Source: a virus. From it: DNA of 27,595 nt. The notes beneath the pieces are model-generated. The model saw only the letters and a list, made by a program, of their open reading frames with translations. It ran no database searches and was not told the DNA's origin. Below are positions 1 through 11,140 of this stretch, one piece after another (position 1 is the first letter of the stretch; the number at the start of each line of letters is the position of its first letter). Location: positions 1-27,595 of IMG/VR virus record IMGVR_UViG_3300020439_000056. One strand, given 5' to 3'. The position numbers were made by a program, and so were the translations under genes.

Positions 1-833
1 GCAGCGAGGAAGAAATGCAGACTTCTAGAATTGTTAAAAGATGCATACTGGAAGATCAGACGACCGAAGTAACCGTGGGCAGCGACGATGTTGTAGGTCT
101 CTTCTTCTTGACCAAACTTGTAACCATAGTTCTGAGACTCAGTTTCGGTAGTTTCACGAACAAGAGAAGAAGTAACCAGACTTCCGTGCATAGCAGAGAA
201 AAGAGATCCACCGAATACCCCAGCAACACCGAGCATATGGAACGGGTGCATAAGGATATTGTGTTCTGCTTGGAATACAAGCATATAGTTGAAAGTACCA
301 GAGATACCAAGAGGCATACCATCAGAGAAAGAACCTTGACCGAAAGGATAGACGAGGAACACGGCGCTAGCAGCAGCAACAGGGGCGCTGTAAGCAACAC
401 AGATCCAAGGACGCATACCGAGACGATAGGAAAGTTCCCATTCACGACCCATGTAACAGAAGACACCAATCAGGAAGTGGAACACAACGAGTTGGTAAGG
501 ACCACCGTTGTACAACCACTCATCCAGAGTTGCTGCTTCCCAGATGGGGTAGAAGTGAAGACCGATAGCATTAGAAGAAGGGACAACTGCACCAGAGATG
601 ATGTTGTTGCCATACATCAGAGAACCAGAGACGGGTTCACGGATGCCGTCGATGTCCACAGGAGGAGCAGCGACGAATGCAGTAATGAAACAAATTGTAG
701 CAGCGAGAAGTGTTGGGATCATCAGTACACCGAACCAACCGACATACAGACGGTTGTTGGTGGATGTCACCCACTCGCAGAAGTTTTCCCAATTAGACGG
801 GGTATATGTTTGTTGAAGCGTTGAATTTGCCAT
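1..833 (-). CDS. psbA: Photosystem II D1 protein, 3' end cut by window edge
   Basis: Encodes the D1 reaction-centre subunit of photosystem II, an integral thylakoid membrane protein. Phage copies replace the fast-turnover host D1 during infection. The first 277 codons are visible, starting at ATG 833 ([15 protein letters not shown]), and the frame runs off the window at base 1. Recognisable stretches include [13 protein letters not shown], the Tyr161 region ([14 protein letters not shown], with the Asp170 equivalent) and [14 protein letters not shown] with the Glu189, His190 and His198 equivalents. The position matching residue 130 of the standard numbering is Glu ([12 protein letters not shown]), as in the high-light D1:2 form. 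No intron is present in the visible part. There is no clear Shine-Dalgarno before the ATG. It is the last visible gene of the photosynthesis cassette and has its own sigma-70-type promoter about 150 bases upstream. Confidence 0.99.
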
Positions 834-852: not shown

Positions 853-905
853 GTCACTAGGGAGGTGACGATATGAAGTATTCCTGCAACACCCTCCATT
901 GCAGG
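853..905 (-). promoter_or_regulatory. Two stem-loops in the psbA leader
   Basis: On the transcribed (minus) strand, a 7-bp stem (CCTGCAA/TTGCAGG, 905-883) encloses a 9-base loop containing GGAGGG. A second stem (GTCAC/GTGAC, 869-853) encloses a loop containing CTCCC. The loops can pair with each other over 4-5 bases, which would make a kissing or pseudoknot structure. The elements lie between the predicted transcript start (about 977) and the psbA ATG (833). A role in stability or translation of psbA mRNA is inference. Confidence 0.45.
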
Positions 906-983
906 TATTAGAGACTGTTATTTAATGACGCTGTTTAGTCTCGGTAAGGCGTCTAAAATGTGAACTTTCGTAAACACCATAAG

Positions 984-1012
984 AATATATAGGCTTTAAC
1001 CAACTTTGTCAA
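984..1012 (-). promoter_or_regulatory. Sigma-70-type promoter for psbA
   Basis: A perfect -35 box TTGACA (1012-1007), a 17-base spacer and a -10 box TATATT (989-984) predict a start near 977 and a leader of about 145 bases before psbA. The -35 box lies inside the last codons of the preceding gene. The match is close to the bacterial consensus, so host RNA polymerase should be able to use it. Confidence 0.8.
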
Positions 1013-1280
1013 CCCCTTTCATGGGGGTCAGTTCTGATTCTGGACTCGTCAGACCCTGCTCATAGCAGTAAGAGTCGTAAGCGTCCTTCACCTGGTCGAA
1101 GATGCCAGGTTCAAACTGTGTGTACCGTTCCATAAGACCTGTGCAAGCACCTGATGAGGTGTAGTAGTGGCAGAAATCATACGCTCTGCGATCAATAGGA
1201 ACTTTGTGATGTACAAGGGCACCCAAACAAAAGCGCCTCTCTTCGAGACGCTCTGGGTGGTATCTCCAATCTTCATTCAT
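996..1280 (-). CDS. Hypothetical protein, 94 aa
   Basis: I do not recognise the family. The product is soluble-looking, rich in Tyr, Arg and Glu, with four Cys (in LEERRFCLGALVHH, DFCHYYTSSGACTG and SYCYEQG) and several His, but no spaced zinc motif is obvious. ATG 1280 was chosen over an in-frame GTG at 1292 because the TGA stop of the upstream small ORF overlaps this ATG (ATGA), which suggests coupling. An AGGTG lies nine bases upstream. The 3' end carries the psbA promoter. It sits between the hli genes and psbA, so expression with the photosynthesis cassette is likely, but no function can be assigned. Confidence 0.75.
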   Translation of the reverse strand: MNEDWRYHPERLEERRFCLGALVHHKVPIDRRAYDFCHYYTSSGACTGLMERYTQFEPGIFDQVKDAYDSYCYEQGLTSPESELTPMKGVDKVG

Positions 1281-1426
1281 AGTGGAACACACCTAAATTG
1301 TTGATCTTGTTTCATACAGGAACAGAGATGGAGGTAGAAGTTTGCTTTGTGCTTAGAGAGATTTGTGTAGTGTTTCAAATTGATCCACCTACCCTTATAG
1401 AAGCACTCCAACCTATACCTATCCAT
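1277..1426 (-). CDS. Small hypothetical protein, 49 aa
   Basis: A short basic ORF starting MDRYRLECFYKGRW and ending QQFRCVPL. It has four Cys and many Lys/Arg/Tyr/His, and no membrane helix. Support comes from context. It fills the gap between two other genes, its TGA overlaps the ATG of the 94-aa gene (ATGA), and a GAAGAG purine run precedes the start, although very close to it. Function unknown. It could be chance, since 49 codons is short, but the stop/start coupling argues for a real gene. Confidence 0.5.
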   Translation of the reverse strand: MDRYRLECFYKGRWINLKHYTNLSKHKANFYLHLCSCMKQDQQFRCVPL

Positions 1427-1447
1427 CTCTTCTGCGGCGAATCGTTT

Positions 1448-1534
1448 TTATTTAGACTCGTCTCCTGATTGTGTTAACATTGCTGCACCCGCAAATGTTG
1501 TTAGACAAATTGCTACTGTGGCAAGTAACCACAT
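1448..1534 (-). CDS. 28-aa membrane microprotein next to hli
   Basis: A tiny ORF whose ATG (1534-1532) shares its A with the TAA stop of the upstream hli gene (TAATG), so it could be translated by re-initiation. It starts MWLLATVAICLTTFAGAA, a single hydrophobic helix of about 18 residues, and ends in a short polar tail (TQSGDESK). This is the layout of small photosystem or cytochrome b6f subunits and of single-helix proteins, but I cannot match it to a named one. Existence rests on the coupling and on the clean hydrophobic-plus-tail composition. Confidence 0.5.
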   Translation of the reverse strand: MWLLATVAICLTTFAGAAMLTQSGDESK

Positions 1535-1644
1535 TACCAGACACCAGGAAGGATCTGTCCAGTTGTGATGTAGGTGCCGACTGCGATAATGAAACCGAGC
1601 ATAGCAACTCTACCGTTCAAAAGTTCTGCTTTTTCGTTAAACAT
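1534..1644 (-). CDS. hli: High-light-inducible protein, very short (36 aa)
   Basis: A single-helix chlorophyll-binding-like protein of the thylakoid membrane, thought to protect photosystem II and bind free pigment under stress. The family signature ELLNGRVAMLGF (residues 7-18) is present, followed by a hydrophobic helix ending PGVW. At 36 residues it is close to the minimum for an Hli. An AGGAG eight bases before the ATG (1657-1653) supports the start and overlaps the TAG stop of the preceding hli gene, so the two are almost certainly co-translated. Confidence 0.9.
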   Translation of the reverse strand: MFNEKAELLNGRVAMLGFIIAVGTYITTGQILPGVW

Positions 1645-1655
1645 AATAGTAACTC

Positions 1656-1859
1656 CTAAAAAATACCAAAGAAAAATTTACCAGTGATGGCGTATGAGAG
1701 GAAACCAGAGATGACTCCCATCATTGCCCAGCGTCCGTTGTAAATCTCAGCATATTGCTGAGGGGAATTAAGACCCTTGCGATTGTAGTCTTCGACTACC
1801 ATCTGAGGTTCTTTGGCGAAGATGTTAGTTTGTCCGTACTCGTTCGTGGTGACGGTCAT
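1656..1859 (-). CDS. hli: High-light-inducible protein (67 aa)
   Basis: Second Hli-type protein. The first 40 residues are polar (MTVTTNEYGQTNIFAKEP), then comes the pigment-binding helix with the signature AEIYNGRWAMMGV and a hydrophobic stretch ending GKFFFGIF. ATG 1859 is preferred over a longer reading from 1913 because the latter would place the sigma-70 promoter at 1913-1884 inside the coding region. With this start the leader is only about 18 bases. First gene of the hli-psbA cassette. The role is photoprotection at the thylakoid, by family knowledge. Confidence 0.93.
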   Translation of the reverse strand: MTVTTNEYGQTNIFAKEPQMVVEDYNRKGLNSPQQYAEIYNGRWAMMGVISGFLSYAITGKFFFGIF

Positions 1860-1883: not shown

Positions 1884-1913
1884 ATTATATAGCAAATCTT
1901 TACATTCTGTCAA
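1884..1913 (-). promoter_or_regulatory. Consensus sigma-70 promoter for the hli-psbA cassette
   Basis: TTGACA (1913-1908), an 18-base spacer and TATAAT (1889-1884). An overlapping TATATA gives a 16-base spacer alternative. Both boxes match the bacterial consensus exactly. The TGA stop of the upstream gene (1912-1910) lies inside the -35 box. Predicted start near 1877. Confidence 0.85.
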
Positions 1914-2699: not shown

Positions 2700-3320
2700 T
2701 TAAACGAAATGATACCACCCCGTTGCGATAGTTTTATCTGATGTATCTGATTTGCGACCCTTATGGTGATAGGTCCAGTCCGCTGGCCAGATTACAGTCA
2801 GTCCCTTCTGGGCGGGGATGTATAGGTCCTGATGGAACCACTCAGTGCCACCGTCAGGAACGTCGTTAAGGAAAGTCATCCAAACCATATGTCTATATGT
2901 GTTGGATCGAGAACTAGATTGACGTTCGCAGTGCCACATGTGGTATCCGCCACCAGGTTTATAGTATTGAAGGTTGAAAAATTCTTCCATCTTCCAACCG
3001 TTTGTCTTGGCACACAGGGGGAATTTGTCCACATAATTATTCATAACTCGATTGACTTCCCCCGTGAAGTCCCGAACCCTAGTATCAGTGATTCCAATAA
3101 AGACAGGATTGTCCATAGAATCCTTGATACTAGGGTCAACTAGACCACCTCCGTCATCAGCGATAGTTTCCCCTGGCCACTTCTCAAAAATGGTTTGAGT
3201 ATTGTAAAAATCTAGGATGCCGTCTGTTACTCCTTCGTCTATGAATTCAGTATAAATGAAATCAGTACGGGGAGTTGCAATACGACCATCGTAAAGTATT
3301 GGGTCAGGGTTTAACTTCAT
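2700..3320 (-). CDS. 2OG-Fe(II) oxygenase-like protein, 206 aa
   Basis: Probable 2-oxoglutarate- and Fe(II)-dependent dioxygenase of the prolyl-4-hydroxylase-like group, common in cyanophages; substrate unknown. The core is at about residues 117-206: FNLQYYKPGGGYHMWHCERQ carries the H-x-E metal pair (HCE), followed by MVWMTFLNDVPDGGTEWFHQ, the proximal strand KGLTVIWPADWTYHH with the distal His, and a C-terminal ATGWYHF strand. The second ligand is Glu rather than the usual Asp. The N-terminal 110 residues are less typical. ATG overlaps the upstream TAA (TAATG). Confidence 0.82.
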   Translation of the reverse strand: MKLNPDPILYDGRIATPRTDFIYTEFIDEGVTDGILDFYNTQTIFEKWPGETIADDGGGLVDPSIKDSMDNPVFIGITDTRVRDFTGEVNRVMNNYVDKFPLCAKTNGWKMEEFFNLQYYKPGGGYHMWHCERQSSSRSNTYRHMVWMTFLNDVPDGGTEWFHQDLYIPAQKGLTVIWPADWTYHHKGRKSDTSDKTIATGWYHFV

Positions 3321-3567: not shown

Positions 3568-3639
3568 TGGGAGATGACGGGATCGAACCGCCGACCCCCT
3601 CGGTGTAAACGAGGTGCTCTACCGCTAAGCTAATCTCCC
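3568..3639 (-). tRNA. tRNA-Val (UAC)
   Basis: A full cloverleaf can be drawn: acceptor GGGAGAT/ATCTCCC with discriminator A, D arm with AGCTTAGCGGTAGAGC, anticodon arm CCTCG-TTTACAC-CGAGG, and T arm GGCGGTTCGATCCCGTC. The anticodon is TAC, reading GUA and other Val codons ending in purine. CCA is not encoded. 72 nt, three bases after tRNA-Arg. Confidence 0.95.
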
Positions 3640-3642
3640 AAA

Positions 3643-3716
3643 CGAGACAGGTAGGACTCGAACCTACGACCGACTGCTTAGAAGGCAGTTGCTCTATTCC
3701 ACTGAGCTACTGTCCC
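3643..3716 (-). tRNA. tRNA-Arg (UCU)
   Basis: Cloverleaf with acceptor GGGACAG/CTGTCTC (one G-U pair), D arm with GTAGCTCAGTGG, anticodon arm ACTGC-CTTCTAA-GCAGT and T arm GTAGGTTCGAGTCCTAC. The anticodon TCT reads AGA/AGG. CCA is not encoded. 74 nt. Phage tRNAs of this kind usually supply codons that are rarer in the host, which is inference here. Confidence 0.95.
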
Positions 3717-8862: not shown

Positions 8863-11140
8863 CACACTCTGCCTCATTACCACTCATGATGTCATTGATA
8901 AGATTGTCTAGCATCTCAGTCGAAGAAGTTTCTTCGTCTTTCTTAATGTCGTATGTGTTCTGATAATAAGATGTCTTCCATCCATACTTGTAAGTAGTCA
9001 GAAGATCATTCGCCATAACTGATACAGGGATCTCGTTGTTAGGATAGTTCTCTGGGTTGTAAGACCAGTTGCCACTGATCGCTTGGTCAAAGAACTTCTG
9101 CATAACAGCAACAATCTTAATGTATCCGTCGTTGTTTGGCATGTCCCAAAGCAAGGTATAGTTCGCCCTCAGGGAGTTGTACTGCGGTACGATTTGTTTT
9201 AGGGGACCTTTCTTGCTTTTCTTAATGGACAGGTAGTCGCGAGGTGGTTCGATACCGTTTGTTGCGTTTGACACAACGGAACTGCTCTCCGAAGGCATTT
9301 GTGCGGACAGAGTGCTGTGCCTGAGTCCGTGTTCTTTGATAGAATCCCTAAGAGTATTCCAATCATATTTCAATTCGTTACCAACGATTTCGTCTACCTC
9401 TTTCTTATATGTATCGATCGGAAGAATTCCATCCGAATACTTTGTACCAGCAAATCCAGCACATGCACCACGTTCCTGAGCAAGTGTGTTAGATGCCTTC
9501 AACAGGTAATACTGGAACGCCTCAGTGAGGTCATGAACCAGTTGATGTGCCTCAGTATCAGCATAGTTGACACCATTCTTAGCAAGGAAATGTGCCAGAC
9601 CAATGAAACCAATACCCAGTGAACGGCGTGCCAGTGTACTGCGACGTGCAGCAGCAACAGGGTATTCCTGATAGTCAATCAGTTCTTCAAGACCACGTAC
9701 TGCCAGGTCACAAATGTTTTCCAAGTCATCAATCTTTCTGATCTTGCCGACGTTGACAGCAGACAGAATACAGAGAGCAATCTCACCAGCGTCCTCATCA
9801 ATGTGGTTGATGGGATCAGTAGGCAGGGTGATCTCTTGACACAGGTTAGACATGTTCACCTTGTCTTTGAAAGAGGAGTGCTCGTTACAATGATCAATGT
9901 TCATCAGATAAACACGACCAGTTTCAGCACGCTCCTTCAACAAGTTCAGGATCAGTTCCTGTGCAGGTATGGAACGACTTGGGATGCTGGTGTCTGCTTC
10001 GTACTTGGTGTAAAGATTATCAAAATCGGGAGTGCCAAAAGAATCGTATAGACCAGGCACATCGTGAGGACTGAAAAGAGTGATGGTCTCATTTCTAATA
10101 AAGCGTTCATAGAACAGTTTACTCAGTTGAATAGAGTAGTCAAGTTTGCGAACACGATTGTCCTCAGTTCCCTTATTGTTCTTTAATACTAGGATGTCTT
10201 CGATTTCTTGGTGCCAGATTGGGAAGTGGACAGTCGCGCTTCCGCCTCGTATGCCATTTTGAGTGCAGCATCTGACAGTGCTCTCAAACTTTTTGAGGAA
10301 CGGAATAACACCTGTGTGTTGAACTTCTCCGCCTCTGATTTTACTGTTGATGCCACGGATTCTGCCCGCGTTGATACCGATGCCCGCCCTTTGTGCAACA
10401 TACTTGCCGATAGCCATATCAGAAGTAAAGATGCTATCGAGGGTGTCATCAACATCAACAAGAACACAGCTAGCAAATTGTCGAAGTGGAGTTCGCACCC
10501 CTCCCATGATAGGTGTGGGAATGTTGATGAGGTGCTTTGAGATTGCGTCGTAGTATCGTCTGACGTATTCAAGACGAGTCTCCTCTGGATATTTCTGGAA
10601 GAGAGTTGCAGCAATTAGCATGTACATGAACTGGGGAGTTTCAAATACTTCGCCGCTACTCCGATCCTGTACGAGATATTTATCTGCTACCTGACGAATG
10701 CCAGCATATGTGAACAAATAGTCACGATCATGGTCAATGTATGAGTCCAGGATCGCCCACTCGTCGTCGCTGTATGCCCCTGCAAGGGTCTTGTCGTAGA
10801 CACCGAGCACAATACCCTTGTCTACCTGAGTTTTTAGGGTAGGGTGAGAGTCAGGATGTGCCTTGTACACTGACTTTCTAAGAGAAAACAGCAACAAACG
10901 TGCTGCTACAAATTGATAGTTTGGTGCGTCCAAAGAGATCAAATCATTTGCAGACTTGATAAGGATCTCTTGAATATCTTTTGTTTCGATACCGTCGAAG
11001 AATTGCAGGTTAGCATTCATCTCCACTTGGGATTCACTAACGCCTGCAAGATCACGACAAGCGTGCTCTACCATTTGATGAACCTTTTCCAGGTCCAGGG
11101 GCGTGCTGTGCCCGTTACGCTTGACGACGTTGATGGTCAT
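8846..11140 (-). CDS. nrdA: Ribonucleotide reductase class Ia, alpha subunit
   Basis: Catalytic large subunit, 764 residues. The N-terminal ATP-cone (TINVVKRNGHSTPLDLEKV) is kept, so allosteric control by ATP/dATP may be retained. FASCVLVDVDDT has the first active-site Cys, MSNLCQEITLPTDP the N-x-C-x-E catalytic block, and the C-terminal tail ends ECDACNV with the Cys pair that receives electrons. ATG 11140 overlaps the primase TGA (ATGA); a TTG four codons earlier is unnecessary. Supplies dNDPs for phage DNA synthesis. Confidence 0.98.
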   Translation of the reverse strand: MTINVVKRNGHSTPLDLEKVHQMVEHACRDLAGVSESQVEMNANLQFFDGIETKDIQEILIKSANDLISLDAPNYQFVAARLLLFSLRKSVYKAHPDSHPTLKTQVDKGIVLGVYDKTLAGAYSDDEWAILDSYIDHDRDYLFTYAGIRQVADKYLVQDRSSGEVFETPQFMYMLIAATLFQKYPEETRLEYVRRYYDAISKHLINIPTPIMGGVRTPLRQFASCVLVDVDDTLDSIFTSDMAIGKYVAQRAGIGINAGRIRGINSKIRGGEVQHTGVIPFLKKFESTVRCCTQNGIRGGSATVHFPIWHQEIEDILVLKNNKGTEDNRVRKLDYSIQLSKLFYERFIRNETITLFSPHDVPGLYDSFGTPDFDNLYTKYEADTSIPSRSIPAQELILNLLKERAETGRVYLMNIDHCNEHSSFKDKVNMSNLCQEITLPTDPINHIDEDAGEIALCILSAVNVGKIRKIDDLENICDLAVRGLEELIDYQEYPVAAARRSTLARRSLGIGFIGLAHFLAKNGVNYADTEAHQLVHDLTEAFQYYLLKASNTLAQERGACAGFAGTKYSDGILPIDTYKKEVDEIVGNELKYDWNTLRDSIKEHGLRHSTLSAQMPSESSSVVSNATNGIEPPRDYLSIKKSKKGPLKQIVPQYNSLRANYTLLWDMPNNDGYIKIVAVMQKFFDQAISGNWSYNPENYPNNEIPVSVMANDLLTTYKYGWKTSYYQNTYDIKKDEETSSTEMLDNLINDIMSGNEAECDACNV

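Follow-up and report, generated by a model that had tools for sequence, protein, structure and literature searches.

Phage psbA and hli genes are standard examples of the viral takeover of photosynthesis, and the question raised by this locus is whether the very small open reading frames (ORFs) threaded between them are real genes and, if so, whether they contribute to the same process. The window, meaning the whole stretch of DNA analysed here, is a virus record of 27,595 bases that carries psbA, hli and a PhotoRC-II RNA of cyanophage kind. An initial annotation, made from the letters alone, had described a 36-aa Hli and ORFs of 28, 49 and 94 aa between hli and psbA, had likened the 28-aa product in layout to the small photosystem subunits, and had proposed that such tiny, easily missed genes may encode extra photosynthesis-related phage proteins.

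Gene order between hli and psbA

All four ORFs are present on the minus strand, and their lengths and TAATG and ATGA junctions are exactly as first described. In order of transcription, the region consists of a sigma-70 promoter, hli1, hli2, the 28-, 49- and 94-aa ORFs, a second promoter-like site, the PhotoRC-II RNA and psbA, all on the minus strand. The sigma-70 promoter upstream of hli1 (1884..1913; TTGACA, 18 nt, TATAAT) matches the consensus at 12 of 12 positions and, judging by sequence, is likely the start of a transcript that runs from hli1 through hli2 and the 28- and 49-aa ORFs to the 94-aa ORF; promoter-like sites of any quality number 4 on both strands of 780-2300, against a mean of 2.7 in shuffled sequences. 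The first gene, hli1 (1656..1859), encodes a 67-aa high-light-inducible protein (phrog_178, E 9.1e-31), and hli2 (1534..1644) encodes a short Hli of 36 aa (phrog_178, E 9.6e-18) for which tblastn, at E up to 1, matched 520 phage records. The 28-aa ORF (1448..1534) lies directly downstream, its ATG sharing one A with the hli2 stop (TAATG). The core of a T4-like late promoter, TAAATA, overlaps the 28-aa stop at 1449..1454, about 28 nt upstream of the start of the 49-aa ORF (1277..1426); with 18 such motifs in the window against 10.2 expected, this site is weak by itself. The 94-aa ORF (996..1280) starts on the stop of the 49-aa ORF (ATGA) and extends beyond the left edge of the interval 1277-1644 considered in the initial annotation.

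The second promoter-like site (984..1012; TTGACA, 17 nt, TATATT), located upstream of the PhotoRC-II RNA and psbA, scores 11 of 12, a quality that shuffled sequence yields too. The PhotoRC-II RNA, a psbA leader element (870..963; Rfam RF01717), scores 58.3 bits against a gathering score of 39, and psbA (1..833), recognised from its D1 translation, is truncated by the window edge, its best match being 93-99% identical in 7 records. The PhotoRC-II, hli and psbA of the window are ordinary. A PhotoRC-II RNA is carried by 13 of the 19 related loci scanned, and two adjacent tRNA genes lie elsewhere in the window (3568-3716, minus strand).

Conservation of the 28-aa gene

A length of 28 aa is nothing special in itself, as the window holds about 47 ATG ORFs of 24-31 aa; the case for a gene is built instead on conservation and selection. 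Tblastn with the 28-aa peptide, run with a permissive E limit of 10, hit 50 phage records, a number that counts RefSeq duplicates; at least 80% of the peptide was covered in 47. A second query also hit 50 records and added 4, for a total of 54. At the matched site, 42 of the first 50 records carry no annotation, 2 carry only an overlapping hli, and at most 6 carry a hypothetical protein that is possibly this ORF. Phage annotation loses conserved coding sequence below 30-40 residues.

The set of loci that we call family A comprises 11 isolate records, the window (duplicated as L013) and 74 loci from IMG/VR, which include some of the same isolates. These 87 loci encode 54 distinct peptides of 24-31 aa, with all frames open and with 86 ATG starts and one GTG. 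The initial annotation had suggested looking for frameshifts or lost start codons in relatives, and this partial check brought up nothing against the gene among the copies found, in searches that themselves favour intact copies and with 7 of 25 records lacking it.

Selection on the peptide is visible in several measures. All 1431 pairs of family A give a pS of 0.671 against a pN of 0.253, the 12 isolates and the window alone give 0.654 and 0.245, and dN/dS is 0.19 for the 266 pairs less than 30% different, indicating purifying selection, and 0.26 (132 pairs) after dropping the columns of the scan pattern; because the pairs share ancestry, these are descriptive values rather than independent tests. 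Differences at codon positions 1, 2 and 3 stand at 0.31, 0.18 and 0.57, and, of 51 ungapped rows, none has a stop in frame 0, whereas the other two frames are interrupted in 51 and 29 rows. The IMG/VR scan pattern fixed F14, A17, A18, T21 and Q22, and the invariance of these residues in scan hits comes partly from that selection; all five are also invariant in a 12-sequence alignment (A1) of 11 tblastn hits and the window.

A profile scan of 25 whole records found exactly one family A copy in 18 and none in S-SZBM1, Syn9, S-PM2, S-SM2, P-SSM2, P-SSM4 and P-TIM40, so such phages either manage without the gene or have a form too diverged to be recognised. The profile scan also located an unannotated copy in S-RSM4 (9608-9685), which starts on the hli_01 stop. 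That the 28-aa ORF is a real coding gene, and one easily missed, as was first supposed, is near certain from these comparisons.

Peptide features and comparison with known families

Across the 54 distinct family A peptides, residues 2-20 have a mean hydrophobicity of 2.19 (lowest 1.93), a charged residue falls within this stretch in only one peptide, and 49 have an acidic tail. For a 30-aa relative, AlphaFold predicts a single helix at residues 2-21, with a mean pLDDT of 95 for residues 1-10, 93 for 11-20 and 68 for 21-30, and the single helix contains a conserved GA....T core. The features that define family A and the related family C described below are all present, namely the M1 start, the hydrophobic helix, the GA core at 16-17, T21 and a short tail. 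The best reading of the 28-aa product is thus a putative single-pass membrane microprotein.

Cyanobacteria have a number of low-molecular-mass photosystem subunits, including PsbT, PsbM, PsbI, PetN and the like. The likeness drawn to these proteins holds for layout: there is one hydrophobic helix in fewer than 40 residues, as seen in the model of the 30-aa relative and in the hydrophobicity values, and the gene lies beside photosynthesis genes in some phages. It does not extend to sequence, where Pfam, NCBIfam and PDB offer no relation, and identity as a recognised small photosystem or cytochrome b6f subunit was rejected because no curated family or solved chain matches. Pfam gave nothing for the window peptide, a single hit at E 0.67 in 1 of 12 members, and none for 14 family C members. 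NCBIfam yielded no relative of the microprotein, the best PDB chains (E 0.14 for family A, 0.44 for family C) are unrelated proteins, and PHROGs returned nothing convincing, the best E being 0.03 in 2 of 12 family A members.

Kinship to Hli was also considered and rejected. Both would be tiny single-helix membrane proteins, encoded as operon neighbours in the same phage cassette, but the microprotein lacks the Hli motif, ExxNGRxAMxG; the 28-aa peptide has no phrog_178 match, and hhalign against an Hli alignment gives a probability of 0.1%.

Related microprotein families

Two further families, B and C, were reached by following the DNA downstream of family A. Family C includes 84 loci, some repeated, with 41 distinct peptides of mostly 24-25 aa, 83 ATG starts and one TTG, and a dN/dS of 0.29. 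Among the 30 records searched, it was found in 7 metagenomic records and in P-SSM2, and no record among the 22 scanned for both families has a clear match to both A and C; a part match to family C in S-TIM5 (E 0.04) was taken as chance. A gapless alignment of 23 columns, beginning at residue 1, joins families A and C (hhalign 72%, E 3e-5), a link that, like the link between phages and cells described below, rests on very short hydrophobic sequences. The P-SSM2 protein PSSM2_286 (AAX44663.1, cluster T4-GC 281) is a 24-aa type C relative that likewise starts on a stop codon, that of psbA; it differs in having a basic tail, TPTK, instead of an acidic one, and is annotated only as hypothetical.

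Family B has a 27-aa consensus (alignment A3), MNFTTTTLLIGSAxSLFSWSVLSPMLP, and comprises 74 loci, some repeated, with 28 distinct peptides (one with a changed C-terminus), ATG starts throughout and a dN/dS of 0.26. Family A occurs in the same locus in 25 of the 74, and psbA or hli also in 25; neither is found in 49, most of which have flanks of at most 2 kb. Examples are L027:4153-4233 and L005:2646-2726; family B adjoins A or C in many loci, with a TATAAT-like sequence upstream, and the copy of S-IOM18 (L003:2643-2732), which has a diverged C-terminus, looks frameshifted. A comparison of family A with family B revealed no relation. Searching phages directly by tblastn with family B or with one diverged family A peptide found nothing, whereas profiles find both; the low-complexity filter is possibly the cause of this failure.

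Relatives in cyanobacteria

Cellular relatives were sought in 400 genomes from the family of a Cyanobium genome (G027), which we take to be the Cyanobiaceae. The C profile detects, at E ~1e-5, a 23-aa peptide, MEILAVIAIV(G/S)AAFGGAAA(M/L)TK(N/K), in 5 of these genomes, so that the microprotein is not universal in this phototrophic host lineage. A profile made from the 5 cellular peptides recovers the same 5 genomes, and hhalign gives 97% against C and 92% against A. At E 0.01, the family A profile misses the 23-aa peptide in the 400 genomes. Its hit at E 0.007 in one genome, inside a 517-aa frame, was taken as chance, and a sixth genome with the C profile (E 0.0019, a part match in a 292-aa frame) was set aside before the count. 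A pattern-limited scan of cellular contigs found none. A cyanobacterial genome that has the 23-aa relative (G144) also contains, at L330, a 27-aa ATG ORF with C-like layout (C profile E 0.009), which was not counted.

As a yardstick, the B profile was run against the same 400 genomes and gave 19 with E <= 0.01, of which 17 are part matches (E 0.002-0.008) in frames of 49-86 aa and were taken as noise; the other 2 genomes have a full-length family B relative, a 27-aa ATG ORF (E 7e-5 and 1e-4). Thus, for such profiles an E near 0.003 means little and an E near 1e-5 is suggestive, not proof. In 100,000 letter shuffles, a generous null that any helix-then-polar layout beats, the count was 0 when the cellular peptide was compared with either A or C, and 3, 10 and 192 when three C peptides were compared with A.

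The neighbourhood was tested in one of the five cellular genomes. There, 4 of 10 ORFs near the 23-aa relative have Pfam matches (MliC, which is the next gene, YkuD, MIF and sigma-70 region 2) and 6 have none, and no photosynthesis gene was recognised among the 10. Unlike the low-molecular-mass photosystem subunits, the microprotein is patchy in phages and rare in cells (5 of 400 genomes), which argues that it is not a core subunit. On these comparisons, the best reading is of a superfamily that would unite family A (24-31 aa), family C (mostly 24-25 aa) and the 23-aa cellular version in cyanophages and a few cyanobacteria. The microprotein family is unnamed in Pfam, PHROGs, NCBIfam and PDB; single members are already known as hypothetical proteins (S-TIM5, P-SSM2). 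Our literature search found no description of the microprotein gene and no ribosome profiling of cyanophages.

Gene placement and promoters

Placement was counted over 59 family A loci distinct by peptide plus 12 nt upstream. The start overlaps an hli stop in 16 of them, involving a short hli in 10 (9 at -1 nt, 1 at -4 nt) and a long hli in 6 (all at -1 nt); in the other 43, the 12 nt upstream contain neither an hli nor a psbA stop. S-TIM5 AEZ65613.1, also of family A, has the identical 1-nt overlap with an hli stop, differing from the window in that its partner is the long hli rather than the short one and the stop is TGA (TGATG). Of the 54 distinct family C loci, 11 place the start -1 to +2 nt from a psbA stop (4 of them at -1), 1 overlaps an hli, and 42 have no such stop in the 12 nt before the gene. 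All told, the start falls directly at the end of a phage photosynthesis gene in about a quarter of the distinct cases.

A link of the 28-aa protein to photosynthesis is likely because the family starts on the stops of two kinds of hli and, as type C, on or within 2 nt of the psbA stop; inheritance of a single gene order would hardly account for junctions with both hli types and with psbA. Co-occurrence in the same genome, by contrast, says little, since these phages have psbA and hli in their core gene set (PMC3037559). Of 25 family A records searched for psbA, 7 have it, among them both complete genomes (S-TIM5 and S-RIM44) and a 91.8-kb record; the other records are fragments. No hli was detected near family A in 10 loci (L033, L035, L036, L043-L046, L080-L082), and in 9 of these neither hli nor psbA was found in the record (fragments up to 38 kb); the tenth is in the 91.8-kb record, which bears psbA, a D2-like gene and hli elsewhere.

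By letters alone, 20 of the 54 distinct family A peptides start at TAATG or TGATG, and 3 of these 20 also have NTAAATA. Among the remaining 34, NTAAATA occurs at -23 to -33 in 25, compared with 5.5% of random 70-nt windows from the same loci. This motif is a looser form of NATAAATA, which PMC2984593 gives as the late promoter of cyanomyoviruses. The window copy has no NTAAATA in the 70 nt upstream, and instead has the early-type promoter before hli1.

Downstream of A, C and B genes (for example, L006 from 2579 and L036 from 3461), TAAATA is followed by approximately TGAATATCGTCG(T/C/G)CGC and then by a terminator-like hairpin and a T run. This conserved element could produce a short transcript late in infection, perhaps a small RNA.

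Possible roles of the microprotein

We infer translational coupling, a thylakoid location, binding to D1 or Hli and a role in repair from the placement of the gene alone. In this phage, termination-reinitiation on the hli2 stop would yield the 28-aa protein from the hli operon, and coupled translation would allow it to reach the membrane together with Hli. In relatives, the same coupling would follow the second hli type or psbA, or else a dedicated late promoter would drive the gene. The helix would associate with new D1 or Hli in the thylakoid, an association that would help to keep photosystem II working during infection. We judge the chances to be about even that the microprotein is made with D1 or Hli and acts as a small helix aiding photosystem II repair or Hli function, as an assembly or repair helper and not as a permanent photosystem subunit. 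If so, a mostly unannotated microprotein on psbA and hli stops would be a missing part of the photosynthesis takeover and would open a new route to the study of D1 repair and Hli function. It is tempting to speculate further, as a tentative reading that we hold somewhat below even, that cyanophages and a few cyanobacteria share a superfamily of 23-31 aa single-helix proteins, translated together with D1 or Hli and serving as a dedicated partner of these that keeps photosystem II running in infected cells, a phage photosynthesis gene missed as too short, and that family B belongs to the same set.

The main rival, which we consider unlikely, is a general late-infection membrane microprotein, acting for instance in lysis timing as a holin-like or anti-holin helix, in membrane stress or in superinfection, and found near hli and psbA since genes gather there. 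The T4-like late promoters before 25 of the 34 copies without a TAATG or TGATG start fit this idea, as do the copies away from hli, one of which (L081) has an Hsp20-like ORF on one side and, two ORFs away on the other, a DNA-polymerase-like ORF (both named by eye). It would also fit the vicinity of psbA being a hot spot of Synechococcus-phage-specific genes, as stated in PMC3037559. However, the window copy sits in an operon with a perfect early-type promoter, nucleotide-exact junctions with two hli types and psbA exceed what hot-spot clustering would give, and a cellular version exists.

Rather less probable still is a protector or regulator, in which the helix would bind D1, Hli or FtsH, the membrane protease responsible for D1 removal, and slow that removal. 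Small helices are known to tune proteases of the FtsH type; such a precedent, the junctions with D1 or Hli genes and the single helix with its conserved GA....T core are all consistent with the idea. It is very improbable that the ORF is mainly a translated leader or coupling device, with a late promoter and terminator at its end and the peptide a by-product. In favour of this reading, 21 of the 54 distinct family A genes have TAAATA across their own stop, and 18 of the 54 distinct loci carry an ATCGTCG element in the 60 nt that follow the stop, often together with a terminator-like hairpin. Against it, selection acts at the amino-acid level, and the peptide is conserved in the 36 of 54 that lack ATCGTCG in that interval.

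The 49- and 94-aa ORFs

The two remaining ORFs are cyanophage genes that encode conserved proteins of unknown function. The 49-aa family has 12 distinct sequences, including that of the window, and a dN/dS of 0.21 (54 pairs less than 50% different, with synonymous sites near saturation); the 94-aa family has 13, again including the window's, and a dN/dS of 0.30 (29 pairs less than 50% different). The junction of the two, TGAATGAAGATTGG, is common to S-WAM1 (L008), L079 and L252. No curated family backs a photosynthesis role for either ORF, nothing being found beyond weak PHROG matches, of unknown function, of the 94-aa ORF to phrog_707, 36106 and 4136 (E 0.002-0.007). Thus, of the extra photosynthesis-related proteins first proposed, the 28-aa product retains a likely link through its stop junctions, whereas the 49- and 94-aa ORFs, conserved as they are, are tied to photosynthesis by position only. 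In S-WAM1, the relative of the 94-aa ORF is a single frame from 2773 (2773-3063), of which the record annotates 2905-3063 in this frame and 2777-2923 in another; from the sequence, the annotated start looks wrong.
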